DNA of 64,000 bases, taken from the NCBI RefSeq assembly GCF_017357825.1, contig NZ_CP046072.1, positions 744,001 to 808,000 on the forward strand. Direction: 5' to 3'. Shown one piece after another: positions 2,740 through 28,827 of the stretch. A program made the position numbers and the translations under genes. Under the pieces are notes generated by a model. It worked only from the letters and a program-made list of their open reading frames with translations, searched no databases and was not told the DNA's origin. Position 1 is the stretch's first letter, and the number at the start of each line of letters is the position of its first letter. This DNA comes from Sulfurimonas aquatica (GTDB lineage: Bacteria; Campylobacterota; Campylobacteria; Campylobacterales; Sulfurimonadaceae).

Positions 2740-2834
2740 AAGTAGCTCTACTAATGAGTTTTCAAAGTTAGTATTTAATATATATTTTCCTTTATTTTTG
2801 ATAAACTACAGCATTTTATAATACTAGGATATAT

Positions 2835-3077
2835 ATGAATAGCGATTTAATTTTAAACAAAATTATACAAGAAGTTTCTTTATTATCAAAGAAAGATGTA
2901 ATTAATTATAACCAAGAAATTTTTGGGAAAGATGGACTTCTTGATTCATTGAATGTCTTGCATATAATGCTATTTATAGAAAGAGAATTTAATATCCAAA
3001 TTAATCCTGAAAATGTTACTCTTGATAACTTTGGGACAATTAATAAAATTTATGATCTAATTAAACTATATGAATAA
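2835..3077 (+). CDS. Acyl carrier protein (discrete)
   Basis: An 80-residue carrier protein with the phosphopantetheine attachment motif DSL (Ser38) after GKDGLL, followed by helix 2 (NVLHIMLFIEREFNI) and the typical DNFGTINKIYDLI end. The serine would carry a thioester-bound acyl or aminoacyl group. It overlaps the downstream ligase by 8 bases, so the two are almost certainly co-translated and work together. It differs from a fatty-acid AcpP (less acidic, many Asn and Ile residues), consistent with a dedicated secondary-metabolism or glycan carrier. Confidence 0.85.
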   Translation: MNSDLILNKIIQEVSLLSKKDVINYNQEIFGKDGLLDSLNVLHIMLFIEREFNIQINPENVTLDNFGTINKIYDLIKLYE

Positions 3078-4431: not shown

Positions 4432-4519
4432 TATATCATTCGTGATTCATAATAATACATAGACTCTCAACGATTGATAGAGGTGCTGGAAAAACAGTTA
4501 CTTTTACTAGAACTGATAC

Positions 4520-5359: not shown

Positions 5360-5486
5360 TATATTTACCACCTGAGAATCTATTTAACATTCTTATTCTT
5401 GATTTTTATATTTAAAATTTCACTGACAATATCCAATAGTTAATTGTTCTCAACTGAAAGGTAGAGATAATAATCATATAAAAAAG

Positions 5487-6572
5487 TTATTTTATAGTAC
5501 TTATTATAGTATCAATAACTTTATTCATACTGCCAATATCTAAATCATCTCCCATAGGTAAACAAAGTATTCTAGTTGATATATCCTCAGATATATCACA
5601 AATTTGATTTGTATTATTAAATTTCAATGTATTAAGTGATGGGTAAAAGTATCGCTTAGGATATATTGATTTTTCTGTTAACTTCTTCATTACTTCAATT
5701 ACATATTTTTCATTTTCAAATAATATTGAACAAAAACTATAATTTTTAGTTGAATTTTTATTTTTTTCTTGAAAAACAACATAATCTTTTAAGTTTTCAT
5801 AGTAGTAATTATATGCCATTTCTTTTTTAGAAATGATAGTGTCAATCTCATCGAGTACACATAGGCCCATAGCTGCTTCAAATTCATTCATTTTTGCATT
5901 AATACCAATATTTGAATGATTTCCATTACCGTCTAGTCCAAAATTAATTATTTCTCTTATTTGTAATTCTAGCTGTTTATTCTCATTAACTATTATTGCA
6001 CCACCTTCAATAGTATGAAACACTTTGGTAGCATGGAAACTAAGAGTAGAAATATCGCCATGTGTAAGTATACTTTTGTCTTTGTAGTTAACTCCAAATG
6101 CATGTGCTCCATCATAAATAGTTTTTAAATTGTACTGTTTAGCAATCTTTTCAATTGACTCAACTTCACAAGGATTACCAAAAATATGAACTGGTACAAT
6201 TGCTGAAGTACTCTTTGTAATAAGATGTTCAATATTTGTTGGATCCAAGTTTAGTGATTTATGATTTATATCAGAAAACTTTGGAGTAATATGCTCCCAC
6301 TTTAAAGAATTAGTTGTAGCAACAAAACTAAAAGGAGTTGTTATTGCTTCACCTTCCAATCCTAAGGCCTTGTATGCAATTTGTAAAGCCAAAGTCCCGT
6401 TCGCAACAAGAATTATACTTTTTACACCAAGATATTCTGCCAATCTTTTTTCTAGTTCCTGCACCAAAGGACCATTATTTGTTAAGTGCTTGGAATTATA
6501 TATTTTATCAATATATTTCATATATTTTTTTTGATCAGGTAAATAGGGAGAATTAACATAAATTGATTTCAT
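5487..6572 (-). CDS. DegT/DnrJ/EryC1/StrS-family sugar aminotransferase
   Basis: PLP-dependent aminotransferase (361 aa) that would convert a keto-deoxysugar nucleotide to the amino sugar. Landmarks are the ANGTLALQIA segment (57-66), the PLP-contacting Asp in YDGAHAFG (Asp154), and the Schiff-base Lys in SFHATKVFHTIEGG (Lys183). Length and the LTNNGPLVQELE start are typical, and the sequence is most reminiscent of enzymes making 4-amino-4,6-dideoxyhexoses (VioA/FdtB type). No nucleotide-sugar dehydratase lies in the window, so the donor sugar must come from genes elsewhere. The product would be a natural acceptor for the AAC(3)-like acyltransferase. Confidence 0.85.
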   Translation of the reverse strand: MKSIYVNSPYLPDQKKYMKYIDKIYNSKHLTNNGPLVQELEKRLAEYLGVKSIILVANGTLALQIAYKALGLEGEAITTPFSFVATTNSLKWEHITPKFSDINHKSLNLDPTNIEHLITKSTSAIVPVHIFGNPCEVESIEKIAKQYNLKTIYDGAHAFGVNYKDKSILTHGDISTLSFHATKVFHTIEGGAIIVNENKQLELQIREIINFGLDGNGNHSNIGINAKMNEFEAAMGLCVLDEIDTIISKKEMAYNYYYENLKDYVVFQEKNKNSTKNYSFCSILFENEKYVIEVMKKLTEKSIYPKRYFYPSLNTLKFNNTNQICDISEDISTRILCLPMGDDLDIGSMNKVIDTIISTIK

Positions 6573-6619
6573 ATTACTAAATTAACACCATACTATTAAT
6601 TTCCATATTGCCAATTACA

Positions 6620-6733
6620 CTAATCATTATTTATATCACAATACTGAGGGTCAACTGATATTAGTTTAATAATTTTAACTATTTTATCAATATTGTTTTT
6701 ATTATTACCATAGTTGTTAAGATAACTTGGCAT
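6620..6733 (-). CDS. Possible 37-residue small protein
   Basis: A short frame beginning at ATG 6733, with AAAGGA at a proper Shine-Dalgarno distance and ending at TAG. It is rich in Asn, Lys and Ile and has one Cys near the C-terminus. It fills the gap between the VOC and aminotransferase genes on the same strand. No family is recognised; it could be a relic of a longer gene or chance in AT-rich DNA. Confidence 0.3.
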   Translation of the reverse strand: MPSYLNNYGNNKNNIDKIVKIIKLISVDPQYCDINND

Positions 6734-6836
6734 TTGTTTTCCTTTGTTGTTTTTTCATGTCTTTGATATGCTATTTATACGAAATATAAAAAGTAAATGC
6801 CTTTAAAAGAAATAGAAAAAAATTTACTACTTAAAT

Positions 6837-7238
6837 TTAATACATCATTCGATGATCGTAATAGTATTTAAATTCTAAAATGTTATTTGAAGGATCTTTT
6901 AAAAAAAATGTTAAATGTTCTTCTACTTGACCTTTGAATCTAATAAACTCATCATGAAAAAATGTTAATTCCCTTTCTTTTGCAAGTTTCAATACATTAT
7001 CGTAATCTTTTTTTTCAAAAAAGGTAACTCCAAAATGCCTAGGATACATCTGAGGATCTTTATCAATATTTTCAGGAGATAAATGGCATACAACCTGATC
7101 TCCAAAAAAGTCAATAGTTATTCTATCATTATACCTTCGTGCTAATTTACAACCAAGCTTTACGATATAAAAATGGAATGTTTCATCTAGATCTTTGCAT
7201 GGTATTGCCAGATGAAATACATTACTACTATTTCTCAT
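6837..7238 (-). CDS. VOC-superfamily (glyoxalase/dioxygenase-fold) protein
   Basis: A 133-residue vicinal-oxygen-chelate protein: VFHLAIPCKDLDETFHFY at the start, FGDQVVCHLSP in the middle, RHFGVTFF, and KDPSNNILEFKYY at the end. The pairs of His and Glu residues in these segments (HLAI, CHLSP, HFGV, LEFK) match the usual metal-ligand positions. Family members are glyoxalases, extradiol dioxygenases or epimerases, so the reaction is not predictable. It ends the run of genes that starts with the HD protein and comB-comA, with 16 bases between it and comA, so it may act on the sulfolactate pathway or on the amino sugar. Confidence 0.75.
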   Translation of the reverse strand: MRNSSNVFHLAIPCKDLDETFHFYIVKLGCKLARRYNDRITIDFFGDQVVCHLSPENIDKDPQMYPRHFGVTFFEKKDYDNVLKLAKERELTFFHDEFIRFKGQVEEHLTFFLKDPSNNILEFKYYYDHRMMY

Positions 7239-7254
7239 GTATTGCTTCCTTTCT

Positions 7255-8004
7255 TTATTTAAAAAATGTATCTGATCTTAAACCATGTCTTAGGGTCTCC
7301 AATGATATAATATCATTAAAATCTATGTTCCCTAAATTCACATTAGTGTGTGTATTATTAATAAAGTATTGTTGTAAAAATTTAGTAGGTGCTTCAAAAA
7401 TAATTTTATCTAAATCTATGTCAGAAGCAAGTATTTTTTCAAAAACATCTTCTTTTATACTACCATCAGTGTTACAAATACCACCTTTACCACTTTCTCT
7501 TGTCTCGATTATAACTTTAGTTGCACCTGCATCAATATCTTGCTTAATATAATTAATCCATTGCTCAGCATCAAACCTTGTTGAACGTAAATTGTCTTTA
7601 TATCCAACCTCGCTAAAAACATTAAATTCATTTTTTAAATCTGAAACAATACTGGCCTTCTCAGTGTTTGATAAGTCAATAGTACCATTTGAAACTTCTA
7701 TATATTTGCAATTTTTTATATTGCAATAATTGACAAATTCATTTAATTGATTTTTACTATAAAAATATTCAAATAGTGTTCCCCCAAAAAAATAGTCTAT
7801 ATTGAAAAGCTTCAAAATTTCAATCTTTTTATCAATATTTGGAGAAACCAAACAGGTGCCCCATCCAAATTTTACAAAATCTATATGCTCATTAAACGAT
7901 TCAATTAAGTCTTTAAAATAACTAGTAGAATAGCCCGTGTCAATAATCATATTTAAGCCCTCAACTCTTGGCTTTTTAAAACGGCTTTCTAAATATATAT
8001 TCAA
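7255..8004 (-). CDS. comA: Phosphosulfolactate synthase (ComA/YitD family)
   Basis: Predicted to add sulfite to phosphoenolpyruvate, giving (2R)-phospho-3-sulfolactate. The 249-residue sequence follows the family closely: IDTGYSTSYFKDL near the start, DFVKFGWGT (about 42-50), FFGGTLFE, KYIEVSNGT, SEVGYKD, IETRESGKGGIC, FEAPTKFLQQ and the C-terminal LETLRHGLRSDTFF. This is clearly the family that contains Bacillus YitD and methanogen ComA. It overlaps comB by 4 bases, so translation is probably coupled. No later coenzyme M genes (comC, comD, comE) are present, so sulfolactate itself is the expected product. Finding this pair among ACP, ligase and sugar genes is unusual. Confidence 0.9.
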   Translation of the reverse strand: MNIYLESRFKKPRVEGLNMIIDTGYSTSYFKDLIESFNEHIDFVKFGWGTCLVSPNIDKKIEILKLFNIDYFFGGTLFEYFYSKNQLNEFVNYCNIKNCKYIEVSNGTIDLSNTEKASIVSDLKNEFNVFSEVGYKDNLRSTRFDAEQWINYIKQDIDAGATKVIIETRESGKGGICNTDGSIKEDVFEKILASDIDLDKIIFEAPTKFLQQYFINNTHTNVNLGNIDFNDIISLETLRHGLRSDTFFK

Positions 8005-8675: not shown

Positions 8676-9230
8676 TTATTTTTTTTGAATTTCAAATAAT
8701 ATTTCCCATCGATTTATAAAGTTAACTTCAATTTCTTTATGGGAAATAAATTTTGTTGGTAAGACTACAGGTAATGGATCTGCAATATTTTGCCAATAAT
8801 CATTATTGTGTAAATAAGCATTTGCTTCTGTAACCATTATTGCTTTATCTATTTCTTTAAACTCTTCAGGAAATGGATATGGAATATTATATATTTTACT
8901 TATCTTTTGTATTGCTATTTTTTCTGACTTTATATATTCCGGAAATAAATGTTTATATGGAGTAGGTATATCAAGTCCTGTCATGCCTTCAAATACTTCA
9001 TGGATAAGAGACATTTTTGATAATAAATTTTTATCATAATCTCCTTGATAATGCTGCTGGAAATACTGATCCATTATTAAACAATGCTGCGCAACTGAAT
9101 AGAAAATATCTGTTTGAGACCAAAAACGACATATCCTAGAAAGTGTTTTTGCAATAACTTCAATATCAAAATCTTCATCCATTAAATCAAATGGATTTAT
9201 TCGTTTATTTTTTGAATTTATTACATGCAT
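8676..9230 (-). CDS. HD-superfamily phosphohydrolase-like protein
   Basis: A 184-residue relative of small HD nucleotidases (YfbR-like and phage HD hydrolases). The first His is in YSVAQHCLIM (His49). The signature that is normally HD reads LIHEVFEGMTGLDIPTPYK (His77-Glu78), with the adjoining family segment well kept. A later Asp in EIDKAIMVTEA fits the fourth ligand. The Asp-to-Glu change in the name-giving motif could alter the metal site or mean loss of activity. It is the first gene of the HD-comB-comA-VOC run. A role in dephosphorylating a nucleotide or sugar is possible but unproven. Confidence 0.65.
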   Translation of the reverse strand: MHVINSKNKRINPFDLMDEDFDIEVIAKTLSRICRFWSQTDIFYSVAQHCLIMDQYFQQHYQGDYDKNLLSKMSLIHEVFEGMTGLDIPTPYKHLFPEYIKSEKIAIQKISKIYNIPYPFPEEFKEIDKAIMVTEANAYLHNNDYWQNIADPLPVVLPTKFISHKEIEVNFINRWEILFEIQKK

Positions 9231-9466
9231 TTACAATATACCTTTTCCTGAATAGCAAGTTTATTTTTTAAATTAATTGAGGCCATCTATATCTTTTATA
9301 ATTTTTGGATATTATATCGAAATAAATGCGAGCTACTATAAAATAATTATTTAAAATAAGATATAAAAATTTGCAATATTTTGATTTTTACAGTATATTA
9401 ATTATATTTTTGCTACTAAAAATATGTAAAAAGTTTGAGCATACTAATTGAGAAGGGAGTGGTATT

Positions 9467-11677
9467 ATGTATAAAGTTGCACTAATTCAAAACCAGTCTG
9501 AAATGCTCCATTATGGTTATGCTGATGCTAGAACATTAATTAAAAACTTTGGTTATCAATTAGAATTATATACAGCAGATAATATTGATAATTTAGGTTT
9601 AGCATTATCAGATGATAAATATGATGCAATTATCATAGGTTCTAATTCCTTTAATGATAAAACAATACGTGAGGAATTTGAAAAAAATTATTTTATAAAT
9701 ATATTCCAAACTTGGATTCAGAGTAATGGTGGACGAGGATGTTTATGTATGCATCAATTGAGGCTTGCTAGTGAGAAAAATTCTTCTTTAATGTTTTTAC
9801 CAGAATATTTAAATAATGTATCAGCAGTCAAACGTTTGCCAGGGGAAAAATCAGCTGATGGTAATATTTCTTTTGGTTTTAAGGCTGAAAAACATAACCT
9901 CTGTTTGTATCCAAACAAAATAAACCCTCAAAATATTAAAAGAATAGCATTGGAGTATAAAAGTTTACCTGGAATTTATTGGCATTATTGGTCTAATGTT
10001 AATTTGTCAGATTGGGAAATATTGATTAATGACCTGAGTACTGATGAGAATTTCCGTCCATTAATTATTAACTCAAGAAAACCAGATCAAGGTCGCATTG
10101 TGCTAAGTGCTTTAACCCTAGATTGGCAAAAACAAGAAGATGTTTTACAAAATATATTGACTTACGTTGTTGAAGGGAAGCATAGTACAGCAATATTATC
10201 TAGTTATGATAATACAAATAGATCATTTGAATATTTTATGAGTATCTTAAGGTCAAAAAAAACTCCTTTTAGAAATTACAATATAAGTGATCAGTTAGAA
10301 ATATTGACGAACAGTATTCTTAATAACATCCATAATATATTACTTTTGGGTCCTAATATCAGTTTGTCTGAATTGCCATCAAATTTGTCCAAAAACGTCA
10401 AGGAAAAAGTAAATGAAGGAAAGTTAAAACTTATTAGTATTAAAGATACGGATGGTGATTTTAGTAGTTTTTCAGTTTTTGGTAGAGAACGTTCAGCGCA
10501 AGAGTTGTTATATGCTGCAGAATTAAAGATACAGTCAGAATTACATACAGGATACATAGATGGAAGTTTCTGGAGCACTATAGAAACATTACAAATATTG
10601 AATAATCTAGATAGATTACAAAGTTCCTATAAGCAATTTATTTCTAAAGTATTAATTTTAATGTCTAAACATGATAAAAATGGTTCTTATGACGAAGTTT
10701 TTGGTGCAACATGTGCACTACTATGGATACGTGGGATACATCTAGGTATTACATCGTATAAGACAGAAGAGACTTTTCAGTGGATAAAAGAAAGGATTTC
10801 AGAATATGAATCCAGGGAACAACTTCAGGCATACTTAATTATAATAGAATTAAAAATTGAATCAGCAGTAATAAATGAATTAGTTGAAAATATATTCAAA
10901 GGTATAGACTTTGATAGCTTAAGTGAAATTGACATAATAGTATATCTTAAGGCAATGATAGCTTCGAATAATACTAATTTTTTATTAAAATTAATTTTTC
11001 TGTTGAAAGATAAACAAAAAGAAAATGGTTCCTGGATTGATTTAGCTACTACGGCGACATCAATAAGTGTACTTATCGATATTTTATTACATATTCAACT
11101 TGATAAATTAGATAAAGCTAGTATCGAAAACATAATCTATAATGGAGTAAACTATATCCAGAATAGTTTACAAAGTGCTACTGTGAATGTAAATAATGAA
11201 TGTTATCCTTGGGATGGAAAAGCTAGCACAACGGTTAAATGTATTAATGCACTATTCAGATATGAAGAACTTATTAGTCTTCCAGTAAATGAACTTATTA
11301 AATTTATAACAAAAAACAAGAATAAAATATCTTCTATTTCTGATAGTCGACAAGCTTTATCTATACTGAACGAAATGAAAGACGAAAATACTAACTTAAT
11401 AAATAAATCAAATGAATTGAAAATTAAGCTTTTAAAGAAGTCAAAGATCTCAAGACTTAGTACGACATATATGTCCATTTCACTATTATTTGGATATATT
11501 TTATTAAGTATTATTATTGTACCTTTGTATAACCTTGGACCAGAATATAGTATTTCATTAATTAAAATAGTATTTATCGATGCATGGCCCTCTCATATTG
11601 CTATAATGGGAGCAATTGGAGCATTGTTAGCATTACCTATTAAAAAATGGTTTATTAATAATGATGAAAGAGAGTGA
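9467..11677 (+). CDS. Multidomain protein: ThuA/GATase-like N-terminus, helical toroid, C-terminal membrane anchor
   Basis: A 736-residue protein without a recognised name. Residues 1 to about 240 look like a class-I glutamine-amidotransferase/ThuA-type alpha/beta domain (VALIQNQSEML, DAIIIGSN, GGRGCLCMHQLRLA, then GRIVLSALTLDW). Residues of about 350-640 are helical repeats with the spacing and motifs of alpha/alpha-toroid prenyltransferase or terpene-cyclase folds: GSFWSTIETLQIL, KNGSYDEVFGATCALL, KENGSWIDLATTATS and WDGKASTTVKCINAL. Two hydrophobic segments near 660-680 and 700-725 would anchor it in the inner membrane. The start follows GAAGGGAG. It is the first gene of a three-gene operon with an acyltransferase and NagA. 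I do not recognise this domain order, so the function is open. Confidence 0.6.
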   Translation: MYKVALIQNQSEMLHYGYADARTLIKNFGYQLELYTADNIDNLGLALSDDKYDAIIIGSNSFNDKTIREEFEKNYFINIFQTWIQSNGGRGCLCMHQLRLASEKNSSLMFLPEYLNNVSAVKRLPGEKSADGNISFGFKAEKHNLCLYPNKINPQNIKRIALEYKSLPGIYWHYWSNVNLSDWEILINDLSTDENFRPLIINSRKPDQGRIVLSALTLDWQKQEDVLQNILTYVVEGKHSTAILSSYDNTNRSFEYFMSILRSKKTPFRNYNISDQLEILTNSILNNIHNILLLGPNISLSELPSNLSKNVKEKVNEGKLKLISIKDTDGDFSSFSVFGRERSAQELLYAAELKIQSELHTGYIDGSFWSTIETLQILNNLDRLQSSYKQFISKVLILMSKHDKNGSYDEVFGATCALLWIRGIHLGITSYKTEETFQWIKERISEYESREQLQAYLIIIELKIESAVINELVENIFKGIDFDSLSEIDIIVYLKAMIASNNTNFLLKLIFLLKDKQKENGSWIDLATTATSISVLIDILLHIQLDKLDKASIENIIYNGVNYIQNSLQSATVNVNNECYPWDGKASTTVKCINALFRYEELISLPVNELIKFITKNKNKISSISDSRQALSILNEMKDENTNLINKSNELKIKLLKKSKISRLSTTYMSISLLFGYILLSIIIVPLYNLGPEYSISLIKIVFIDAWPSHIAIMGAIGALLALPIKKWFINNDERE

Positions 11678-11678
11678 T

Positions 11679-12230
11679 ATGAGATATATAGATAAAGATG
11701 CTTTTGTATCAAAGAATGCGAAAATTATTGGTAATGGTTCCTTACATATAGAAGCACATGCCGTAATAGAAGACAATGTTTTAATTGACTTAGGTCAAGG
11801 AGGAACGATACGAATAGGATATCGATCTAAATTAAAATATGGTTGTGTGTTAAGATCCTATGATGGAAAGATAACTATACATGACAGATCCACTATTGGA
11901 GAGTACTCTATTTTAGCTGGGCACGGAGGATTAATAATTGGTAATGCAGTAATAATTGCAGGCCATTCCTATATCTCTGCCGCAGGACATATTTTTTCAG
12001 GCATGAATGACCATATAAGATTTCAAGGTGAGATTGCGAAAGGAATACAAATCGATGATGGAGTATGGATAGGAGCTCGTTGTGTAATTTTAGATGGTAC
12101 TCAACTTGGTGAGAATTCTATTATTGGAGCAGGTTCAATAGTTACTAAAAGTCTTAACAGTAATATGGTTTGCTACGGGAGTCCATGTCGTGAAGTATAT
12201 GATCGTTATATAAAAGAGGAGATAGTATGA
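11679..12230 (+). CDS. Left-handed beta-helix (hexapeptide) acyltransferase
   Basis: A 183-residue LbH protein with repeated hexapeptide turns (AFVSKNAKI, VIEDNVLIDL, STIGEYSILAG, GVWIGARCVILDG, QLGENSIIGAGSIVTKSL) and the usual end VCYGSPCREVYD. These proteins are usually trimeric O- or N-acetyltransferases using acetyl-CoA, often acting on sugars. The likely catalytic His is among HGGLI, GHSYIS and AAGHIF. An ATG 18 bases upstream would overlap the preceding gene. I prefer 11679 because GAAAGAGAG sits just ahead of it and it lies one base after the preceding stop. It overlaps nagA by 4 bases. Confidence 0.8.
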   Translation: MRYIDKDAFVSKNAKIIGNGSLHIEAHAVIEDNVLIDLGQGGTIRIGYRSKLKYGCVLRSYDGKITIHDRSTIGEYSILAGHGGLIIGNAVIIAGHSYISAAGHIFSGMNDHIRFQGEIAKGIQIDDGVWIGARCVILDGTQLGENSIIGAGSIVTKSLNSNMVCYGSPCREVYDRYIKEEIV

Positions 12231-13372
12231 TGTATGCATTTGTAAATTGTGATATTTTTAACGGTAGTGAATTTATTTATAATAAAGCTTTAGTTATTGA
12301 TGGAGAGAAAATCCATGGATTAATCCCTGAAGAGGAATTGGATAAATCAATTGAAATTATTAATTTAAATGGAAAAACAATATCCCCAGGTTTTATTGAT
12401 TTACAAGTAAACGGTGGAAATGGAATTTTATTTAATGATGAGCCTACTATAGAGGCAGTTAAAAAAATATACGATGGACATAAAAAATTTGGTACAACGG
12501 ATTTCTTACCAACATTTATTACAGGTTCATTAAAGGGCATGAAACAAGCTGTTGAATCTATTAATAAGTGCCTAAGTCTTAACTTAGATGGAGTATTAGG
12601 AATACATTTTGAAGGTCCATTTCTTAATCAAGCAAAAGCTGGTGTTCATGAAAAAAAATATATACGTGAAAGTAATGTTGATGATATAGAAGCGATATCT
12701 AAAATTAGTAATGGAATTACTATGCTAACTCTTGCTCCAGAAGTTGTACCAAGTGAATTAATATTAAGTTTACAAAAAAAAGGAATATTTATTTCAATAG
12801 GGCATACAAATGCAACATATGAAGAAGCTATGAATGCTTTTTCTTCTGGTGCTTCATGTTCTACACATTTATATAATGCTATGACTTCATTAGAATCAAG
12901 AGCACCAGGTGTTGTTGGTGCTTCACTAGATAATGATAAAGCATGGACAAATATTATTGTTGATGGTATTCATTCTAGTTATGCTTCTGTACGAGTCGCT
13001 ATGAAAGCGAAAGCAAAACGAAAACTTTTTTTAGTTACTGATGCTATGCCTCCCGTGGGAGGAGAAGGTGACGATTTTAGAATAGGTGATTACAATATTT
13101 CTGTTAAGAATGGTAAATGTGTTACAATGGGTGATACCCTCGCTGGGTCTTCATTAGATATGGCATCTGCCGTTAGAAACTGTATACAGCATGTTGGTAT
13201 TGATAAAGGAGAAGCATTAAGAATGGCTTCTACTTATCCGGCTGAATTTATTAAATTAGATAACCGTATAGGTCATATTAAAAGCGGATATGATGCTAAT
13301 CTTGCGATATTTAATAATCAAATCCAAGTTTCAGCAGTTGTGGTAAAAGGCAAATATGAACTATTTACATAA
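12227..13372 (+). CDS. nagA: N-acetylglucosamine-6-phosphate deacetylase
   Basis: Amidohydrolase (381 aa) hydrolysing GlcNAc-6-P to GlcN-6-P and acetate in the cytoplasm. The family motifs are clear: PGFIDLQVNGGNG (about 56-68), HFEGPFL, the metal His in ISIGHTNATYEEA and STHLYNAMTSL, and the catalytic Asp in LVTDAMPPVGG. GDTLAGSSLDMASAV and SGYDANLAIF close the protein. The first metal site has QVN rather than HxH, as in the E. coli type. No nagB or GlcNAc transporter lies near. Instead it is translationally coupled to an acyltransferase and a membrane protein, suggesting a role in an amino-sugar pathway rather than plain GlcNAc catabolism. Confidence 0.88.
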   Translation: MMYAFVNCDIFNGSEFIYNKALVIDGEKIHGLIPEEELDKSIEIINLNGKTISPGFIDLQVNGGNGILFNDEPTIEAVKKIYDGHKKFGTTDFLPTFITGSLKGMKQAVESINKCLSLNLDGVLGIHFEGPFLNQAKAGVHEKKYIRESNVDDIEAISKISNGITMLTLAPEVVPSELILSLQKKGIFISIGHTNATYEEAMNAFSSGASCSTHLYNAMTSLESRAPGVVGASLDNDKAWTNIIVDGIHSSYASVRVAMKAKAKRKLFLVTDAMPPVGGEGDDFRIGDYNISVKNGKCVTMGDTLAGSSLDMASAVRNCIQHVGIDKGEALRMASTYPAEFIKLDNRIGHIKSGYDANLAIFNNQIQVSAVVVKGKYELFT

Positions 13373-13384
13373 TAACTATACTAA

Positions 13385-13427
13385 ACCCCTAAAACTAAAT
13401 AGTAGTATATTTTAGTTTTTCAGGGGT
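13385..13427 (+). terminator. Hairpin after nagA
   Basis: An inverted repeat pairs ACCCCT and ACTAAA with TTTAGT and AGGGGT, starting 12 bases after the nagA stop. It can end the 9467-13372 operon, although there is no strong T run after the outer stem. Confidence 0.6.
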
Positions 13428-13841
13428 CACGAATCAAATAACTGATTTATATTATGATTAATTTTTTTTATTGCACTATCTGTAAAAAAATGCTTGGCAC
13501 ATGTTATATAAGTAATAGGAGCTTTTCAGAATATTAAACGTCCACAAAACCGGTCACTAAACTTCATTTAATTTCCTAAAAAACAGGAAAATTTCAAAAA
13601 TAGAAGCCTTTGTTTCCCGTTATTTCCGGCAAGTGTAGGAAAAGATGGGTAATCATAATAGACCCAGACTTTTATGTTCATAATATCTACTTTTTACGGC
13701 TATTATCCGGTACTATTTACACAACTGGGTATCGACATAAATAACTTTACAGAGTAAAAATTTTAGAGAGAAAATATAAAAGGTTAAATAAAGCCCTATA
13801 TTACGAGAGTTAACTGAGTTTTGAAGAAAATATTATTTTGT
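13428..13841. other. Non-coding stretch before the island edge
   Basis: About 410 bases between the nagA hairpin and the first attachment-site copy. No convincing reading frame, RNA gene or terminal repeat was found. It may hold decayed mobile-element sequence. Confidence 0.4.
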
Positions 13842-13860
13842 ATCCAGTATCCGGAGCCAC
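13842..13860 (+). repeat. tRNA-Asn 3'-end copy A (att-like)
   Basis: Contains the 18-base core tccagtatccggagccac, identical to the 3' end of tRNA-Asn including CCA and one more C. It marks the left edge of the large inverted repeat. The next bases are aac, as in copies B, C and D but not at the tRNA itself. Confidence 0.8.
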
Positions 13861-13912
13861 AACAATTTAAACTCCTAAATCATTGAACTTCAACCAACTT
13901 TTTTAACATTCG

Positions 13913-14236
13913 GTGTCATTTCGGTGCTATCAGGTATATAAAATTGGAAGCCTTGCAATTAATATTAAAGACTACTCATCTGCTTTTATCCCACAAGTAT
14001 ATTCATTGCCAAACCTAAAAAAGTTAAGCCTATATATCCAAAAGGATCCTAGAGATTTTCATATGTACAAGAAGTTAAAAATGCTACAAGAACATGATAA
14101 TATAGATGTAATCGAAATCATATCTGAGGGTTACGAATTACCTATACAGATTAACAGTTTACTTAATAGACAAGGGTTTATAAACTATAAGGCAGAAAGA
14201 GATAATTACAATACTTCTTTTACCTTTTCAAAGTGA
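13913..14236 (+). CDS. Hypothetical protein, left copy
   Basis: A 107-codon frame starting at GTG, with no family recognised and no membrane segment. The first part overlaps att-proximal repeat-like DNA, so the true start may be a later Met (for example in MYKKLKML). An identical copy lies in the right arm. It could be a remnant of a longer island gene. Confidence 0.35.
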   Translation: MSFRCYQVYKIGSLAINIKDYSSAFIPQVYSLPNLKKLSLYIQKDPRDFHMYKKLKMLQEHDNIDVIEIISEGYELPIQINSLLNRQGFINYKAERDNYNTSFTFSK

Positions 14237-14345
14237 AAGAAAGCTGGATATGATGAAAATCCACTTTTAAAAATGATTAAAGGCAACCTTCTGAAGTTAC
14301 CACTCCACTTATATTTGGAACAAAATATAAAATCAATAGTGAGTT

Positions 14346-14624
14346 TCAATAAAGATTTTCACGATAAATTGTGAGGATTTCTATACCCTCATCTGAGATA
14401 CGGTATATAATACTAAAACCTTGATACACTAGTTTCCTAGTATTTGGTGCTAATTCCTCACTAGGTCTACCTGCTTGGGGAAAATGACTAAGAGTCTGGG
14501 TAATATATTGACGCAATTTTTTTACATAAACAACAGTCGTTTTTTTTGATTCACTTTGTTGATAGATATATTCTGCTAATGCTTCAAGCCTTTGATATGC
14601 TTTTTGAGAAAAATTAATTTTCAT
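14346..14624 (-). CDS. RelE/ParE-family toxin, left copy
   Basis: A 92-residue toxin of the RelE/ParE superfamily: INFSQKAYQRLEALAEYIYQQ at the start, LSHFPQAGRPSEEL in the middle, and LVYQGFSIIYRISDEGIEILTIYR forming the terminal beta strands. It overlaps its antitoxin gene by 11 bases. RelE members cut ribosome-bound mRNA and ParE members poison gyrase; the sequence alone does not decide between them. An identical copy is present in the right arm. Confidence 0.85.
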   Translation of the reverse strand: MKINFSQKAYQRLEALAEYIYQQSESKKTTVVYVKKLRQYITQTLSHFPQAGRPSEELAPNTRKLVYQGFSIIYRISDEGIEILTIYRENLY

Positions 14625-14868
14625 ATTTAGCTAAAACCTTATCAAAAGCTTCTTCAATACTGATAATATCACCTCTTTGGATTTCTTCTATTGACTCTTG
14701 TACTTCACGTTTCAAAGCAGCATGAGTTCTATTATATTCATCAAGTGAAATTAATACAACACTTTTATCATTTTTAGTGGTTATGATAATTTCTTCATCA
14801 TTATCACATGCATCATCAATCAGAGTCTTGAGATTGTTACGGGCATTTGTATAGTTTACAGCTTGCAT
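14614..14868 (-). CDS. Phd/YefM-family antitoxin, left copy
   Basis: An 84-residue antitoxin with the Phd/YefM N-terminal DNA-binding fold (VNYTNARNNLKTLIDDACDN, then IITTKNDKSVVLISLDEYNR) and a charged C-terminal tail that would wrap the toxin. It is upstream of and overlaps the toxin gene. A palindromic operator lies just upstream, as expected for autoregulation by the complex. Confidence 0.88.
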   Translation of the reverse strand: MQAVNYTNARNNLKTLIDDACDNDEEIIITTKNDKSVVLISLDEYNRTHAALKREVQESIEEIQRGDIISIEEAFDKVLAKYEN

Positions 14869-22239: not shown

Positions 22240-22801
22240 CTATTTCTTTTTAGCTACATCTTTAATAGCTCTATAGATTGTATTACGAGCAACATGGAAG
22301 AATTTTGATAGCCATGCTACAGACTTTCCTTTTTCATGTTCTTTATATATGACATTTTTCTCTTTGCTATCTAGAATAGCTTTTCTTCCAAATTGAACTC
22401 CTTTTTCTTTGCAGCTTCAATTCCTTCTCTAACTCGCTCGTTAATAAGATCTCTCTTAAACTCTGCAATAGCACCTAACATGGTAAATAATAATCTTCCT
22501 GCTAGTGTTGTAGTATCAATGTTTTGTTGAATGACTTTGAGATCTACATTTTTATCTTCTAAAAACTTAGCAATATTTTGAAGGTCTATAACAGACCTTG
22601 CTAATCTATCAAGCTTTGTAATAAATAGTATATCTCCTTCACGAACAAAGTCCATAATGATATTAAACTGTTTGAGATCAGCTTTATTCTTAGCAGATTT
22701 TTTTCAGAGAAAATCTTTACACAGCCGGCATCTTTAAGTTGGTCTATTTGATTCTCAAGATTTTGGCTTGAAGTTGAAACTCTTGCATATCTTACATACA
22801 T
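22240..22801 (-). pseudogene. Serine resolvase relic, right copy (two frameshifts)
   Basis: The longer of two resolvase copies. It starts [20 protein letters not shown]. It then loses frame in an A7 run after FSEK, where one more A would restore [11 protein letters not shown]. The next frame encodes the rest of the catalytic domain ([38 protein letters not shown]). A missing G after AAKKK, shared with the left copy, separates the helix-turn-helix end. The shared defect predates duplication, while the A-run shift is specific to this copy. Programmed slippage at the A run is possible but unproven. Confidence 0.8.
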
Positions 22802-22941: not shown

Positions 22942-23196
22942 ATGCAAGCTGTAAACTATACAAATGCCCGTAACAATCTCAAGACTCTGATTGATGATGC
23001 ATGTGATAATGATGAAGAAATTATCATAACCACTAAAAATGATAAAAGTGTTGTATTAATTTCACTTGATGAATATAATAGAACTCATGCTGCTTTGAAA
23101 CGTGAAGTACAAGAGTCAATAGAAGAAATCCAAAGAGGTGATATTATCAGTATTGAAGAAGCTTTTGATAAGGTTTTAGCTAAATATGAAAATTAA
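22942..23196 (+). CDS. Phd/YefM-family antitoxin, right copy
   Basis: Protein identical to the left copy (84 aa), preceded by AGAAGGA. With two identical modules, loss of either one would be buffered by the other, weakening addiction but favouring recombination between the arms. Confidence 0.88.
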   Translation: MQAVNYTNARNNLKTLIDDACDNDEEIIITTKNDKSVVLISLDEYNRTHAALKREVQESIEEIQRGDIISIEEAFDKVLAKYEN

Positions 23197-23464
23197 TTTT
23201 TCTCAAAAAGCATATCAAAGGCTTGAAGCATTAGCAGAATATATCTATCAACAAAGTGAATCAAAAAAAACGACTGTTGTTTATGTAAAAAAATTGCGTC
23301 AATATATTACCCAGACTCTTAGTCATTTTCCCCAAGCAGGTAGACCTAGTGAGGAATTAGCACCAAATACTAGGAAACTAGTGTATCAAGGTTTTAGTAT
23401 TATATACCGTATCTCAGATGAGGGTATAGAAATCCTCACAATTTATCGTGAAAATCTTTATTGA
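23186..23464 (+). CDS. RelE/ParE-family toxin, right copy
   Basis: Protein identical to the left-arm toxin (92 aa), overlapping its antitoxin gene by 11 bases. Intact. Confidence 0.85.
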   Translation: MKINFSQKAYQRLEALAEYIYQQSESKKTTVVYVKKLRQYITQTLSHFPQAGRPSEELAPNTRKLVYQGFSIIYRISDEGIEILTIYRENLY

Positions 23465-23949: not shown

Positions 23950-23972
23950 GTGGCTCCGGATACTGGATTCGA
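23950..23972 (-). repeat. att copy D, distal end of the 4.75-kb element
   Basis: Twenty-three bases identical to 28698-28720, extending farther into the tRNA T-loop than copies A-C. Bases outside differ on both sides, as expected for an attachment-site crossover. Confidence 0.85.
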
Positions 23973-24038
23973 GAAATAATTTTTCAAAATACCGAGGACA
24001 AGGGCTTCCAATTGTGTGACTTCGGATTTGAGTATCAT
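23950..24038 (-). pseudogene. Severed 5' part of the tRNA-Asn integrase gene
   Basis: On the minus strand an ATG at 24038, preceded by AAGGA at a good distance, opens a frame MILKSEVTQLEAL... It runs without a stop into the attachment core, where it reads SNPVSGA in the same frame as the integrase at the other end of the element. In the chromosome the frame stops a few codons later. Joining 23950 to 28697 restores a 1383-base gene (460 residues). This is the pattern of a gene split by its own integration. Confidence 0.7.
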
Positions 24039-24155
24039 AAATTTTCCTTAAGGTATCATAATTATTTTACTAATTATATTTACTTTTCGCTTAGATATTA
24101 CTCTTGTTAAGTATATTATTGATATCATTCTAAAATTTTACCTATAGGGAACAAA

Positions 24156-25004
24156 ATGAAATATATACTAATAACAATTTTATTAATTAATAGCTTATGT
24201 GCTGATTATTTTGATAAAGCTTCTGAGGCTTATGGTAGTGGTAACTATGTAGAAGCTTTAAGACTATTCAAATTAAGTGCTAATAAAGGAGATGCTGACG
24301 CTCAGCATAATATTGCATATATTTATGAAAATGGATATGGCCAAGTACACCAAGACTATAAAGAAGCCTTAAAATGGTACAAGTTGGCTGCTAATCAAGG
24401 ATTTATGCATTCTCAAAATAACCTTGCTTTAATGTATGAAAACGGAAGAGGAGTTGAAAAAAATTACAAACAAGCTATTCACTGGTACGAACTAAGTGCA
24501 AGGCAGGGTTCCCATAGTGCTCAGCTTAATCTTGGTGATATATATTATAAAGGTCGTGGAGTTGAAAAGAATTACCACAAAGCACTATATTGGTATAAGT
24601 TAAGTGCAACACAAGGTAACTCAAGTGCTCAATACAATCTTGCTTTAATGTACCAATACGGTGAGGGTACTAAAAAGAATCAAGTAGAAGCTATTAAATG
24701 GTATAAGTTAGCAGCTAATCAAGGTGAATTAATGGCTCAATATAACCTTGGTACTATATACCATTTTGGAAATGGTATCAACAGAAACTACAAGGAAGCT
24801 GCTAAATTGTATAAATTAAGTGCTAATCAAGGTTATGCAAGTGCTCAACTTAATTTGGGAGTGTTATATTTTAATGGGCAAGGTGTAAAAACAAATAAAA
24901 TAAAAACATATAAACTATGGTTACAAGCAGCTAATCAAGGAAATATTCAAGCTCAAAATAACTTAGATAGTCTTTGTCAAGAAAGCCCATGGGCTTGTAA
25001 ATAA
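24156..25004 (+). CDS. Secreted Sel1-repeat protein
   Basis: A 282-residue protein with a short signal peptide (YILITILLINSLCA, cleavage near residue 16) and about seven Sel1-like repeats of about 36 residues, each with the pattern AQYNLALMY..G.G..KNY..A..WYKLAANQG. Such solenoids mediate protein contacts in the periplasm. Helicobacter has a large set of Cys-rich Sel1-like (Hcp) proteins; this one has only two Cys in its last residues. It is the apparent cargo gene of the 4.75-kb element and is convergent with the small recombinase. Confidence 0.85.
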   Translation: MKYILITILLINSLCADYFDKASEAYGSGNYVEALRLFKLSANKGDADAQHNIAYIYENGYGQVHQDYKEALKWYKLAANQGFMHSQNNLALMYENGRGVEKNYKQAIHWYELSARQGSHSAQLNLGDIYYKGRGVEKNYHKALYWYKLSATQGNSSAQYNLALMYQYGEGTKKNQVEAIKWYKLAANQGELMAQYNLGTIYHFGNGINRNYKEAAKLYKLSANQGYASAQLNLGVLYFNGQGVKTNKIKTYKLWLQAANQGNIQAQNNLDSLCQESPWACK

Positions 25005-25005
25005 C

Positions 25006-25866
25006 TTAACCTCTCAAATACCACAAACTGACAGATTCTCTATTATGATTTAAGGCCTTACTTACTTCAAGCAAGGCTCCTTTATATCCAAGCTCACTAA
25101 CTTTTTCATGAAATAAATTTTTAGCAAACTGATAACGATAGTCATGAGCTCTTAAATTCGGATCCAGTTGTTTTAGGTCTCTATTGAAAGATTGCTTCGA
25201 GGGTATACTCTTCATATTCAAAATAAGCTCTCTATCTTTATGATTGATAATCTTATCATGATAAATTTTACCACCCTTACCAACGACACCAGTTATCTTA
25301 TAATCTCCATTACCTAATGGCTTAATATATTTATGAGGCTCTTTCGCTATAGCCATAGTTTCAGAAATTCGATACCCATTATTCAGCATAATTCTTCCCA
25401 GTACAAAGCTTTCGTACCTTATTTCTTTTAAATCTTCTAAGATACTTTCAGATTGTAGTCCCCGATTTTCTGTATCTTGATTGATAGGTGTTGAAACTTT
25501 TATATCATTGAACTTCTCTTTAAAATAATTTTCAGATACTCCAACAGTAATATTAACCTCTTTAAATGCACTTAATAGACTGTTAAAACCACTTAAATAG
25601 TTTTCTACGGTAGAAAGTGCTAATCCGTCTAATCGTTGCTCTAAAAAGCCGTTAAGGTTCTCTTCATTTAAAAGGAGATTAAATTTGCCGTCTTGTCCAG
25701 TTGATTCCAAGTAGTCTGAAAAATCCTTAAAATACATATTCCTCTTGGTTAAGAGTGCTTCCGAATGTGTTAAATTATCATTAGCTTTTTTTGTGCCCAA
25801 GGCAAATAATTTAAAATTCATGTCTCGTTGCTGTTTTTCAAAACTGGAACCCTTAAGTGACGGCAT
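25006..25866 (-). CDS. Tyrosine recombinase (small)
   Basis: A 286-residue site-specific recombinase. The N-terminal SAM-like core-binding domain covers about 40-110. Catalytic residues are visible as Arg in NGYRISETMAIA, a Lys in VGKGGKIYHDK, His-x-x-Arg in RAHDYRYQFAK, His in LNHNRESV and the nucleophile Tyr in SLWYLRG at the very end. It overlaps the upstream helix-turn-helix gene by 14 bases. It differs from the tRNA-proximal integrase and may resolve multimers or act in a different step. Confidence 0.8.
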   Translation of the reverse strand: MPSLKGSSFEKQQRDMNFKLFALGTKKANDNLTHSEALLTKRNMYFKDFSDYLESTGQDGKFNLLLNEENLNGFLEQRLDGLALSTVENYLSGFNSLLSAFKEVNITVGVSENYFKEKFNDIKVSTPINQDTENRGLQSESILEDLKEIRYESFVLGRIMLNNGYRISETMAIAKEPHKYIKPLGNGDYKITGVVGKGGKIYHDKIINHKDRELILNMKSIPSKQSFNRDLKQLDPNLRAHDYRYQFAKNLFHEKVSELGYKGALLEVSKALNHNRESVSLWYLRG

Positions 25867-26233
25867 TTTCTGACCCTCTTAAATATCTATATATTGTTGA
25901 AGCGGATACACTTACATTATGTTTTATTCTAAGCTCTTTAGAAATTCTATTTGCTCCTAACCCGTTATGGTTCATTAGCTTTATGTCATGCTGAAACTTT
26001 CTTATAATAGGATTTTGCACTTGAAGCTCTTTTGCTTCTCTTGTTATTTGTTTTTCTTGAATATCTTTGATAATAAATATTGATTGAATAATTTGATTAA
26101 CTGTTAAAGTATCGTCTTCGAACATACATTTGTTTAAATGTCCTTTCACTCTCTTTGCATATTCTTCGATTTCTTCGACTGAAAAGTCTAAGACCTTACT
26201 TGCTCGTTGTTTGTAATTGATTGTTAATTTCAT
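25853..26233 (-). CDS. Helix-turn-helix DNA-binding protein
   Basis: A 126-residue protein whose C-terminal part (GLGANRISKELRIKHNVSVSASTIYRYLRG) is a resolvase/Hin-like helix-turn-helix. The N-terminal two thirds are helical and charged. Coupled by overlap to the recombinase downstream, it is probably its accessory DNA-binding factor or a regulator of the element. Confidence 0.6.
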   Translation of the reverse strand: MKLTINYKQRASKVLDFSVEEIEEYAKRVKGHLNKCMFEDDTLTVNQIIQSIFIIKDIQEKQITREAKELQVQNPIIRKFQHDIKLMNHNGLGANRISKELRIKHNVSVSASTIYRYLRGSENAVT

Positions 26234-26965
26234 TTCATACCTCTTATTGTTTATTAAATATGTTGCCTAAAAGGTAGTTTATAAATATCTATTCGGATTG
26301 TAGTTCAGATATGTAGTTTATTTTATGAAAAACATACAAAAAAATTACAGGGGCTAAGCCCCAGTTAGTGAAATAGACAAAAACAGTTCAGTAAGTGTTT
26401 ATTATGAAATATACTTTAGTACAACCTGTGAAATTACTGCGGAAAGTATTCCCTCAACTGTGGTGTACCACACCAGTTTAGCAAAACTAAGTCTCATTAT
26501 TGACTTCATGTTAGACCCTTTAATTAAATTTTATACACTGTTATATATGTGAATTTAGAAATATAGTCAATCTTCAAAAGAATTTCTAAATTCTTTTTCA
26601 TGACTTAATCTTGAATAACTTATGAAACAGTTCAAAGTCGCTATATACCTCCTTATATAGTATTAAAGCCTCAGCCGTCACTATCCCATGAATGAAATAA
26701 ATTTCATGTGATAGAGACGGCTTAAAATGTTCTCAGTAAATAGATAAGAGTAATGTTTTTTTAATATCCTCTTTTTTTTCCTATTCTTACGGTATTAGCT
26801 CTATATATTACTGGTACAAAATAAGTGTTTGTGATGGGGCAAAAATTTGCCCCATGTATAAATTTCTAAATTTGTATGATTTGAGCAAGATTAATTTTAT
26901 GAAATGGTATATAATTTTTTCAGTTCAATTAAAAACTACTAAAATCAATTAAAGGAGACTCATGA
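26234..26965. other. Palindrome-rich region upstream of repL (candidate origin)
   Basis: About 730 bases without a credible gene. It contains GGGGCTAAGCCCC (26350-26362), a long imperfect hairpin with outer arms AGCCGTC/GACGGCT (26673-26722), and a perfect 10+2+10 hairpin ATGGGGCAAA/TTTGCCCCAT (26834-26855). It also has three copies of ATTTCTAAAT or its complement (26553-26562, 26582-26591, 26862-26871) and a TATAAT box at 26910-26915. This is consistent with a replication origin or a tightly regulated rep promoter. Confidence 0.5.
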
Positions 26966-27397
26966 ATGAGCAAAACAAAATCAATTACAAAAACAATAGG
27001 TACAGAGCAATATACTGATAGTAGAACTGGAGAAGTTAAAGAGTTTACAGTTATAAATACAGAAGAACAAACAGATTTCAACTTTCAAAAAATATGGATA
27101 AAAGATTTAATCACATTATTAAAGGCACTTGGAGGCAGTAAAGTCGAGGTGTTCTGTTTACTGCTTGAGAAAAAAAATGCTGATAATATTTTTATAGGTA
27201 GCATTAGCGATATAGCAAAAAAAATAAAGGTAAGTGAAAATACCGTTAAATCAGCTTTAAAGCTTATGAAAGAGCTTGACTATGTGAGAATGGTTATGCA
27301 TGGTGTTTATCAAGTTAGTCCAAGTTTAATAGTAAAAGGTAAGTCAAAAAAGAGACAAATGCTCTTAGCTGATTATAATAATATTAAAGTAGCATAG
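26966..27397 (+). CDS. RepL-family plasmid replication protein
   Basis: A 143-residue protein resembling Firmicutes-type RepL replication initiators: FQKIWIKDLITLLKALGGSKVEVFCLLLEKKN followed by a winged-helix segment (GSISDIAKKIKVSENTVKSALKLMKELDYVRMV). AAAGGAG lies 8 bases before the ATG. An ATG four bases upstream is in another frame and is ignored. In an integrated element it suggests an extrachromosomal replicating phase. A plain winged-helix regulator is the alternative. Confidence 0.65.
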   Translation: MSKTKSITKTIGTEQYTDSRTGEVKEFTVINTEEQTDFNFQKIWIKDLITLLKALGGSKVEVFCLLLEKKNADNIFIGSISDIAKKIKVSENTVKSALKLMKELDYVRMVMHGVYQVSPSLIVKGKSKKRQMLLADYNNIKVA

Positions 27398-27403
27398 TGT
27401 AGA

Positions 27404-28747
27404 TTAAAATCCTACACTATCCAGAATATTTTGGAGGGTGTCCATTTCAAAACCTTTGCCGTAAGTATCAAGAGTTAATTTAGTTTCGCCTTTGGCATGA
27501 CCAACTATCTCTTGAAGCATAAAAATAGAGTTAGGCTTGTCGATATTGGCTTTAATAGCTCGTTTAATAAATGTACCTCTAAATGTGTGGAAGTTTTTCC
27601 CTTGACCCTGATTGACTGCTTTATAGAGTTGATACCTTACTTTTTTACCAAAAGCATTTTTAGTCATATTTGGGATTAAAGGGAACGAGGTATTTAAGAC
27701 CATTTCTAAAATATCTTTATGAATAGGAACTTTTCTTATACCCGCGACACTCTTACTTTTTGTAATGTCAAAATAATAAATCCCAGTCTCTTCGTCTTTT
27801 TTTATACTGTCTTGAGTAAGAGCATTTATCTCATTTTGTCTCATAGCTGTATATAGAGCAATTTGGAAGACTTTTTTAATAATTGGTTCTTTATATTTAT
27901 AATTCATAATCTTATTAATATCAGATTGAGAATAGTTTTCTACCTCTTGTTTTCTATTTTGTTTATCTTTCACTTCGTCTAATGGAGTGACGGGTTTTGC
28001 ATTATTATGAGAAATTAATTGTCTATCAAGTGCAAACTGTAAGAAGTTTCTTGTGTATGTGAGGTGCTTGTTTATTGTTCTATTTGAACTTGTTTTTTGC
28101 TTGACTTTGAAATCTTTAAATGCTTCAAAATCCTCTACCGTTAAAGAGTCAATAAGAGAGTCTTTAAAAAATGATATAAGCATTTTAAAAGTAGTATTAT
28201 ATGCTCCAATACTATCGGCACTTACACGATTATCAGCTTTTTTTCTTGCAATGAATTTATCTCGTAAAAGTTCAAAGGTTAAATCACTTGTATTAGTTTC
28301 TGAACTCTCAATATGTTGCTTGACTTCCTTATAACGGTTAATGGTTGCTTGTATCTGCATTTCTTTAACACTTTCAAGGGCTACTCTGAGTTCTTCTTCT
28401 GTGTCATACTCGAACATGAGTTTAAAGTCACCTGTGTCTATTTGAAACATTTCTTCTCCGTCAATCAGGTCTAAAATCTTTCTTCGTTTAAGGGCGACCT
28501 TGATATTTTTAGTTTTTAGGGATATTCTAAACAATTTCTGCTTAATTCTTCGTCTATAGTAGAAAGTTTTGCCAACTTTGTATAATCGGAGTGCTGTAGT
28601 ATCATATTTTTTTTGAATAGTATCATAGTTTATGTATTCTGTGTCTAAATCTTGCTTAAGAGTCGTATTTATGGGTGTATGTGGGGTGTTTAAAAAAGTG
28701 GCTCCGGATACTGGATTCGAACCAGTGACCAAGTGATTAACAGTCAC
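27404..28747 (-). CDS. Tyrosine integrase reading out of tRNA-Asn (chromosomal form)
   Basis: Integrase with an Arm-type N-terminus (KVGKTFYYRRRIKQKLFRISLKTKN), core-binding domain, and catalytic Arg in ALYTAMRQNEINAL. His-x-x-Arg is in FHTFRGTFIKRAI, His in VGHAKGETKLTL and Tyr in DTYGKG. In the chromosome the only canonical start is a GTG in the anticodon stem of tRNA-Asn, so its first 16-17 residues are translated tRNA sequence. There is no other ATG, GTG or TTG before the conserved Arm domain. A proper ATG and ribosome site lie at the far end of the element (24038), pointing to a split gene. Confidence 0.8.
   Translation of the reverse strand: MTVNHLVTGSNPVSGATFLNTPHTPINTTLKQDLDTEYINYDTIQKKYDTTALRLYKVGKTFYYRRRIKQKLFRISLKTKNIKVALKRRKILDLIDGEEMFQIDTGDFKLMFEYDTEEELRVALESVKEMQIQATINRYKEVKQHIESSETNTSDLTFELLRDKFIARKKADNRVSADSIGAYNTTFKMLISFFKDSLIDSLTVEDFEAFKDFKVKQKTSSNRTINKHLTYTRNFLQFALDRQLISHNNAKPVTPLDEVKDKQNRKQEVENYSQSDINKIMNYKYKEPIIKKVFQIALYTAMRQNEINALTQDSIKKDEETGIYYFDITKSKSVAGIRKVPIHKDILEMVLNTSFPLIPNMTKNAFGKKVRYQLYKAVNQGQGKNFHTFRGTFIKRAIKANIDKPNSIFMLQEIVGHAKGETKLTLDTYGKGFEMDTLQNILDSVGF
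28698..28720 (-). repeat. Attachment site at tRNA-Asn (proximal end of the element)
   Basis: The last 22 bases of tRNA-Asn plus one following base, repeated exactly at 23950-23972. The next DNA outward is the integrase gene body. Confidence 0.85.
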
Positions 28748-28773
28748 CTACTCTACCGCTGAGCTAATCCGGA
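28699..28773 (-). tRNA. tRNA-Asn (GTT)
   Basis: A 75-base cloverleaf with acceptor TCCGGAT/ATCCGGA, discriminator G and encoded CCA. The anticodon loop CTGTTAA (anticodon GTT) is flanked by GGTGA/TCACT, and the T-arm is ACTGG/CCAGT around TTCGAAT. It is intact although its 3' end is the integration target. Confidence 0.95.
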
Positions 28774-28827
28774 ATGTTGATAGGGCGAAATTATACTTTA
28801 TGAGTTATAAAAAGTCAAGTAATTGGG

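Follow-up and report, generated by a model that had tools for sequence, protein, structure and literature searches.

The split integrase gene at tRNA-Asn

The window analysed here is a 64,000-nucleotide stretch of the Sulfurimonas aquatica genome (NZ_CP046072.1, positions 744,001 to 808,000). It contains a 4,748 bp element (23950-28697) inserted at a tRNA-Asn(GTT) gene, and the tyrosine integrase gene of this element is present in two parts, one at each end. The 23-bp core GTGGCTCCGGATACTGGATTCGA occurs twice, at 23950-23972 and 28698-28720, and exact identity stops there. These repeats are the distal and proximal attachment (att) cores. The proximal core is the 3' end of the tRNA-Asn (28699-28773, minus strand, by ARAGORN; Rfam tRNA match at 28702-28773), which is the target site attB. 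The integrase body, int(C), lies on the minus strand at 27404-28697 and encodes the Arm-binding, SAM-like, and catalytic domains. It has no start of its own: there is no ATG, GTG, or TTG between the tRNA and the Arm domain, and the frame continues into the tRNA, where it opens at 28747 (GTG) and a stop is met.

At the other end of the element, a Shine-Dalgarno motif, AAGGA (24045-24049, minus strand), and an ATG at 24038 start a 22-codon leader, int(N) (23973-24038, minus strand; MILKSEVTQLEALVLGILKNYF), which reaches the distal core in frame with int(C). The codons preceding this ATG are TTT, AAA, GGA, and TAA, and the frame therefore has no start upstream of ATG 24038; two TTG codons lie further inside the leader frame. 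When 28697 was joined to 23950 and the minus strand was read from ATG 24038, a gene of 1,383 nt with a single terminal stop was obtained, encoding 460 aa. The core, the far-end ATG with its Shine-Dalgarno motif, and the length of the joined gene had been described in an earlier reading of the DNA letters (the sequence-only reading), and the exact joint reproduced them to the base.

Recurrence of start-less integrase bodies

The first scans, with the window protein as sole query, found no relative in genome_contigs or IMG/VR, and whole-genome searches were therefore adopted. Window-protein searches gave matches in 5 of 100 genomes of the genus (E 1e-10), 5 of 228 of the family, and 12 of 398 of the order (E 1e-25), the window's own genome included. 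Among the first five matching genomes, G004 and G066 represent a second integrase family (A2), which has about 25% identity to the window protein and was matched in 12 of 396 genomes. Profile A1 matched in one genus (11 of 24 genomes) and in one family (4 of 22), some of these matches coming via second-family members. A genome_contigs scan yielded 10 loci, all in metagenome-assembled genomes of Campylobacterota.

The main set comprised 28 tRNA-adjacent copies from these two distantly related Campylobacterota families. Left out before this count were L014 (no tRNA, frameshifted), L044 (no adjacent tRNA, reversed core, frameshifted), L053 (partial core ahead), G573 (a run of N in the tRNA), and G553C10 (contig end); G261, whose target is a transfer-messenger RNA (tmRNA), was treated separately. 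All 28 copies open inside or before the tRNA. The distance from the tRNA end to the Arm motif was 106-143 nt in the 27 copies where the motif was located. No start codon was present between the tRNA and the Arm domain in 21 of the 28, and nine had no ATG, GTG, or TTG anywhere in the open frame ahead of the Arm domain. In view of these nine copies, initiation at a GTG within the tRNA, which the sequence-only reading had considered, is not supported as a general mechanism. The seven copies with a start codon in this interval were L013, L035, L038, G318, G186, G553C3, and G004, and a Shine-Dalgarno motif was absent from their printed upstream bases.

Ordinary integrases looked different. The controls were 40 phage-integrase open reading frames (PF00589 matches with open frames of 357-475 aa, selected from a longer list according to length, with the window's own genome among the sources). 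Five of them lie behind a same-strand tRNA, and all five open downstream of the tRNA and have their own start codon. In none of the 40 does the N-terminal part of the frame extend into a detected tRNA.

Four later tRNA-adjacent copies stand outside the 28. Two of them fit: G508 (tRNA-Met) and G431 (tRNA-Ser) open inside the tRNA with no start ahead of the Arm domain, G431 being frameshifted after 121 residues. The other two, G365b and G329, do not fit and are weighed below. Two more later copies, also not in the 28, lie behind the 3' half of a tRNA only (G039) or behind no detected tRNA (G509). At the G508 locus (L231, oriented 1510-3018 and 3049-4236), two successive integrase matches follow one tRNA-Met, about 30 bases apart.

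Different members read the tRNA in all three frames. In a tree of 25 bodies, its three tRNA-Asn users cluster together (100/99); the targets of the other rows are Ser, Arg, Leu, or tmRNA, and G508 uses tRNA-Met. At L092 (35-413), a split integrase lies at the 3' end of a tmRNA gene (ssrA), and its frame passes through the last bases of that gene.

PF00589 was matched at E 0.01 in 13 of 13 bodies (10 A1, 3 A2), the window protein itself falling below the Pfam cut-off, and SAM-like domains were also matched in part of these bodies. In the A1 family, the catalytic residues R264, K293, R351, H378, and Y390 are invariant and H348 is near-invariant; int(C) of the window element retains the invariant ones. 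The structure of int(C) was predicted with moderate confidence (mean predicted local distance difference test 72.6, predicted template modelling score 0.51). In the model, the N-terminal domain is three-stranded and the core-binding domain helical, a catalytic domain is also present, and the best PDB fold matches are lambda integrase. Because all recognised domains sit in int(C), integration strips the start signals and a short leader (8-35 residues across elements) and no recognised domain.

Leaders at the far ends of the elements

Distal att sites were defined as exact repeats of the tRNA 3' end and were counted at 14 bp or longer; this limit was fixed after the repeat list had been viewed, and the sole true hold-out is G261. 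Such a site was found for 14 of the 28 copies, the elements measuring 4.6 to 22 kb and their core repeats 14-24 bp. In all 14, a start in the integrase frame with a Shine-Dalgarno motif lies upstream of the distal core; for the two other frames, such a start was seen in 6 of 28 cases. The background in these elements is 5.0%, this being the proportion of 42,000 random same-strand positions with a start and a Shine-Dalgarno motif within 40 codons; the far-end rows are related to one another, so the odds are not multiplicative. The fifteenth case, G261, was tested after the rule had been set. It has an 18-bp repeat 6.0 kb off, and its leader begins with an ATG 19 codons ahead of the core, with AAAAGGG upstream. 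In total, all 15 elements whose distal repeat is 14 bp or longer supply an in-frame ATG, a Shine-Dalgarno motif, and a short leader, although for L036 an 18-bp repeat was chosen for its leader and a longest-repeat rule would give 14 of 15. Together with the 28 frames that enter or precede the tRNA, these leaders bear out the earlier claim that the integrase gene is split by integration.

The leaders of the first family are largely MxxSLSAKxxEAL-like, with a mean column identity of 46% over the whole N-terminal alignment. In the second family, P..KG..GYN..W is found in three members, and 8 of 20 leader positions are invariant. Differing leaders were found in G300, G186, and G261. The conservation of the 24038 frame in relatives, on which the sequence-only reading had staked a functional split, was upheld, as the alignments show the leader kept within each family.

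Two further loci carry leader or core sequences. In G300 (L236, G300:C1:18500-20500, minus strand), an orphan int(N) leader, MRLKPLNYGVSGYNGNWECL, precedes a tRNA-Ser core, and GTCCAAC repeats are also present; the integrase body belonging to this leader was not located. In L036 (oriented 13080-14626), a 1.5-kb stretch has a tRNA-Ser core and about 60 bp of near-identical sequence at both ends, and is possibly a mini-element or a tandem remnant.

Shared words on both sides of the core

The two ends of each element also share short words, and this evidence is independent of reading frames. Across 14 elements, the best 14-base matches of the leader side with the body side summed to 183 for the true pairs and to a mean of 163.5 for permuted pairs; none of 100,000 permutations reached the true score. 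In the window, TATGATAC occurs as a pair at each end, on the minus strand, with starts 21 bp apart. The distal pair (24032-24060) stands around the Shine-Dalgarno motif, one word overlapping the start codon, and the proximal pair (28599-28627) lies inside the int(C) coding sequence. The arrangement TATGATAC-13-TATGATAC is found in the 64 kb solely at these two places (expected 0.00). Arm-type integrase sites, as in lambda, are paired direct repeats on both sides of the core. We believe that the element-specific words at both ends are probably integrase arm sites, judging from their sequence and from this analogy. Since the arm-like words surround the start codon and sit within the body, the whole attachment site of the element (attP) seems to be nested in the integrase gene and its leader region. 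A second recurrent word, CCTAAAATAGGCACTTC-like, was seen about 15-35 bp 3' of the tRNA at several loci and in some leaders. It occurs on both sides of many cores and could be a further site for Int or for an accessory protein.

These data bear on two other explanations. It could be supposed that the integrase is an ordinary tRNA-adjacent one with a nearby start and that the far-end ATG is a coincidence, given that about 5% of random positions have a start and a Shine-Dalgarno motif within 40 codons. The leaders in 15 of 15 elements, their conservation, the end-specific words, and the different appearance of the control integrases make this explanation extremely improbable. It could also be supposed that the arrangement mainly acts as a regulatory switch in the circle, with Int binding over its own start to control synthesis, and that excision is performed by another recombinase. 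The position of the TATGATAC words around the Shine-Dalgarno motif and over the ATG would suit such a switch, as would an intact second recombinase-like gene in the element (25006-25866, minus strand). This gene is predicted by eye to encode tyrosine-recombinase-like motifs in a protein of 286 aa, and a similar gene, likewise intact, is present in L034. However, it has no convincing family match, and no counterpart was recognised by eye among the listed open reading frames of at least 90 aa in L041, L013, L045, G405, G439, and G365. We consider this second explanation improbable as well, less so than coincidence.

Proposed mechanism and its difficulties

We believe, with a probability of about 0.9, that the element encodes a bacterial "suicidal" integrase, in which attP is contained in the 5' end of the tyrosine integrase gene itself and integration splits the gene. 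In the circle, the Shine-Dalgarno motif, ATG, and leader, with an assumed promoter, would be joined via the tRNA-derived core to the integrase body. The full 460-aa enzyme would then be made and would catalyse recombination between attP and the tRNA-Asn 3' end. The tRNA would be restored by integration, but the start signals and the leader would come to lie at the far end, and the body, now behind the tRNA, would lack a usable start. As the usable start is removed from the body, integrase production would be shut off, and the integrated copy would stay in place unless an intact related element provides integrase in trans. The sequences show a gene in two parts that join in frame, the recurrence of this layout, and matched words at both ends; the circle, the activity of the enzyme, the loss of expression after integration, and excision in trans are inferred.

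Several observations weigh against this reading. The promoter scan listed no site immediately upstream of ATG 24038; it found 28 promoter-like sites where 23.4 were expected, so single sites carry little meaning. Half of the copies (14 of 28) have no countable distal att. In 13 of them none was found (L012, L033, L035, L039, L040, L042, G518, G276, G092, G318, G066C77, G066C89, and G004), and these all end at or near a contig end, with 1 to 10 kb available. In G500, the only candidate is of 12 bp, with an ATG and without a Shine-Dalgarno motif; none better lies within 33 kb, and it was left uncounted. In L036, the longest repeat (24 bp) has no leader and the leader belongs to an 18-bp inner repeat. 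The body frame of G329, a broken copy, opens downstream of the tRNA and not inside it. G365b (26% identity) has a stop just after the tRNA and then a GTG with a Shine-Dalgarno-like motif. The sequence-only reading had pointed to close homologues starting downstream of the att-encoded residues as the case against a split; 21 copies have no such start and the starts of the other seven lack a Shine-Dalgarno motif, while G365b, a distant relative, does have one. Finally, a tRNA promoter could transcribe int(C), and with the seven pre-Arm starts weak chromosomal expression is possible.

This last point leads to a further alternative, in which the gene is split but the integrated int(C) continues to be translated. 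Initiation could take place at a codon of the tRNA transcript or at a rare start, or could depend on an upstream signal that escaped notice. Integration would then act as a dimmer switch and not as suicide. All three lambda-Int-type domains are retained in int(C), a promoter-like sequence stands upstream of the tRNA-Asn (TTGACT-17-TATAAT, 28790-28818, minus strand, a consensus match only), and the window frame has its GTG within the tRNA; the seven pre-Arm starts and the GTG of G365b point the same way. On the other hand, such translation is hard to reconcile with the nine copies that offer no start codon at all and with the seven exceptional starts that have no Shine-Dalgarno motif. Moreover, the bodies of L013, L038, L043, and L045 are frameshifted, as unused genes would be, and these frameshifts are consistent with decay after integration. 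We regard continued translation as unlikely, yet as the least unlikely of the alternatives, and retain the suicidal integrase as the preferred explanation.

An unsplit copy was sought with the N-terminus, as the sequence-only reading had proposed, and integrated relatives with leaders were found. Free or unbroken copies were not: in 388 genomes per N-terminal profile, no gene has a frame that stays open all the way from the leader start to the Arm domain, and this counts against the suicidal integrase. With the first profile, leader-start matches end at position 36 (G385) and 49 (G246); the G246 match passes the core into body-start-like residues and stops after 58 residues. With the second profile, the leader-start matches were G405, G439, G300, and G365, of which G365 alone reached the Arm region, with four intervening stops. 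IMG/VR, PLSDB, and INPHARED likewise yielded no close copy, and PLSDB and INPHARED gave weak matches only (best identity at most 33%). As no intact circular copy was found, the circle is deduced from the anatomy of the element. Two candidates for a gene restored at a tandem junction were rejected. L053 has a core upstream and no in-frame leader, and in L036 the leader frame passes the inner distal core into 31 body-start-like residues and then meets a stop.

Gene content and neighbourhood

The window element encodes a RepL plasmid replication protein (26966-27397, plus strand; PF05732, E 1.2e-30), and a Sel1-repeat protein is carried as cargo (24156-25004, plus strand; PF08238, E 1.2e-68). A 126-aa protein with no family (25853-26233, minus strand) neighbours the recombinase-like gene, and a similar protein stands beside the corresponding gene in the L034 element. 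Because of this gene content, including RepL, and the tRNA-adjacent integrase, the element is read from its sequence as an integrated small plasmid of the RepL type. Replication genes were found in some of the elements, namely the window element and L034 (RepL) and G439 (Rep3). The cargo of other elements includes mobilisation proteins (G439), TraG-like and type IV coupling proteins (L036), and, in L038 (minus strand, 9068-13069 and 4413-7382), a set resembling a cyclic-oligonucleotide-based anti-phage signalling system (phospholipase, cyclase, E1-E2, and JAB) with a type III restriction enzyme.

Outside the element, the distal att flank carries a serine resolvase in two overlapping frames, apparently frameshifted, and a Phd/YefM-ParE toxin-antitoxin pair (22371-22801 and 22942-23464). 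The second tRNA-Asn of the same genome (L002; G000:C1:721485-722612) is intact. About 550 bp away, the opposite strand carries a match to an ordinary integrase in a 384-aa frame, and an apparent second int match at this locus was rejected as tRNA sequence and noise.

Comparison with known systems

Like the lambda-type integrases (heterobivalent tyrosine recombinases), the present integrases have Arm-binding, SAM-like, and catalytic domains and arm-like sites on both sides of the core. The attP of lambda is located outside the int coding sequence, whereas here int and its leader region contain both the core and the arm-like sites.

According to a 2021 review (PMC8371274), suicidal integrases are exclusively archaeal, and the archaeal suicidal families carry Phage_integr_3 (PF16795). 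The archaeal SSV-type (type I) integrases treated there (SSV1/SSV2, pTN3, and pT26-2) have attP within the integrase gene and are borne by small plasmids or viruses; integration into a tRNA gene divides them into an int(N) and an int(C), the latter carrying the catalytic domain (PMC8371274). The elements described here resemble them in these respects. The differences, set against the same text (PMC8371274), are a bacterial host, ordinary phage-integrase domains in place of PF16795, a shared core of 14-24 bp where 40-50 bp is usual, an int(N) of 8-35 residues with every recognised domain in int(C), and tRNA and tmRNA 3' ends as targets. PF16795 had no match in the 10 A1 and 3 A2 members at E 0.01. 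The label "SSV-like" in the sequence-only reading is therefore right for the mechanism, with attP in the gene, and wrong for membership; by their sequences, the present families would be of the suicidal type without belonging to the archaeal SSV/pTN3/pT26-2 superfamily. In the inovirus XacF1, integration also disrupts a gene of the element; attP there reportedly lies inside an open reading frame for a possible phage regulator, and host XerC/D is used (PMC5666396), whereas here the element's own integrase is split. No bacterial self-splitting integrase was recognised in searches of an open-access library, and the earlier suggestion of bacterial novelty was upheld to this extent. The self-splitting class is already known; its bacterial, structurally different form appears to be new.

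Going further, and with clearly less confidence than for the split itself, we lean towards a widespread bacterial class of self-disrupting integrases that arose independently of the archaeal one, in which a single attP-int module contains the start, the leader, the tRNA core, and the arm sites. Such nesting would place the start of the enzyme within or between its own binding sites. Part of the protein is encoded by the target gene, which can be read in any of the three frames; a switch of target (Asn, Ser, Arg, Leu, Met, and tmRNA) would therefore require the N-terminus to be recoded.

For annotation, a start-less integrase frame entering a tRNA may be the int(C) half of a split gene, and the absent leader marks the far end of the element. 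Occurrence in bacteria would open circle formation, expression, and excision in trans to testing in bacterial hosts, and self-splitting would count as a convergent strategy if a bacterial set with other domains stands beside the archaeal one. If this is true, one integration event both uses and destroys the integrase gene.

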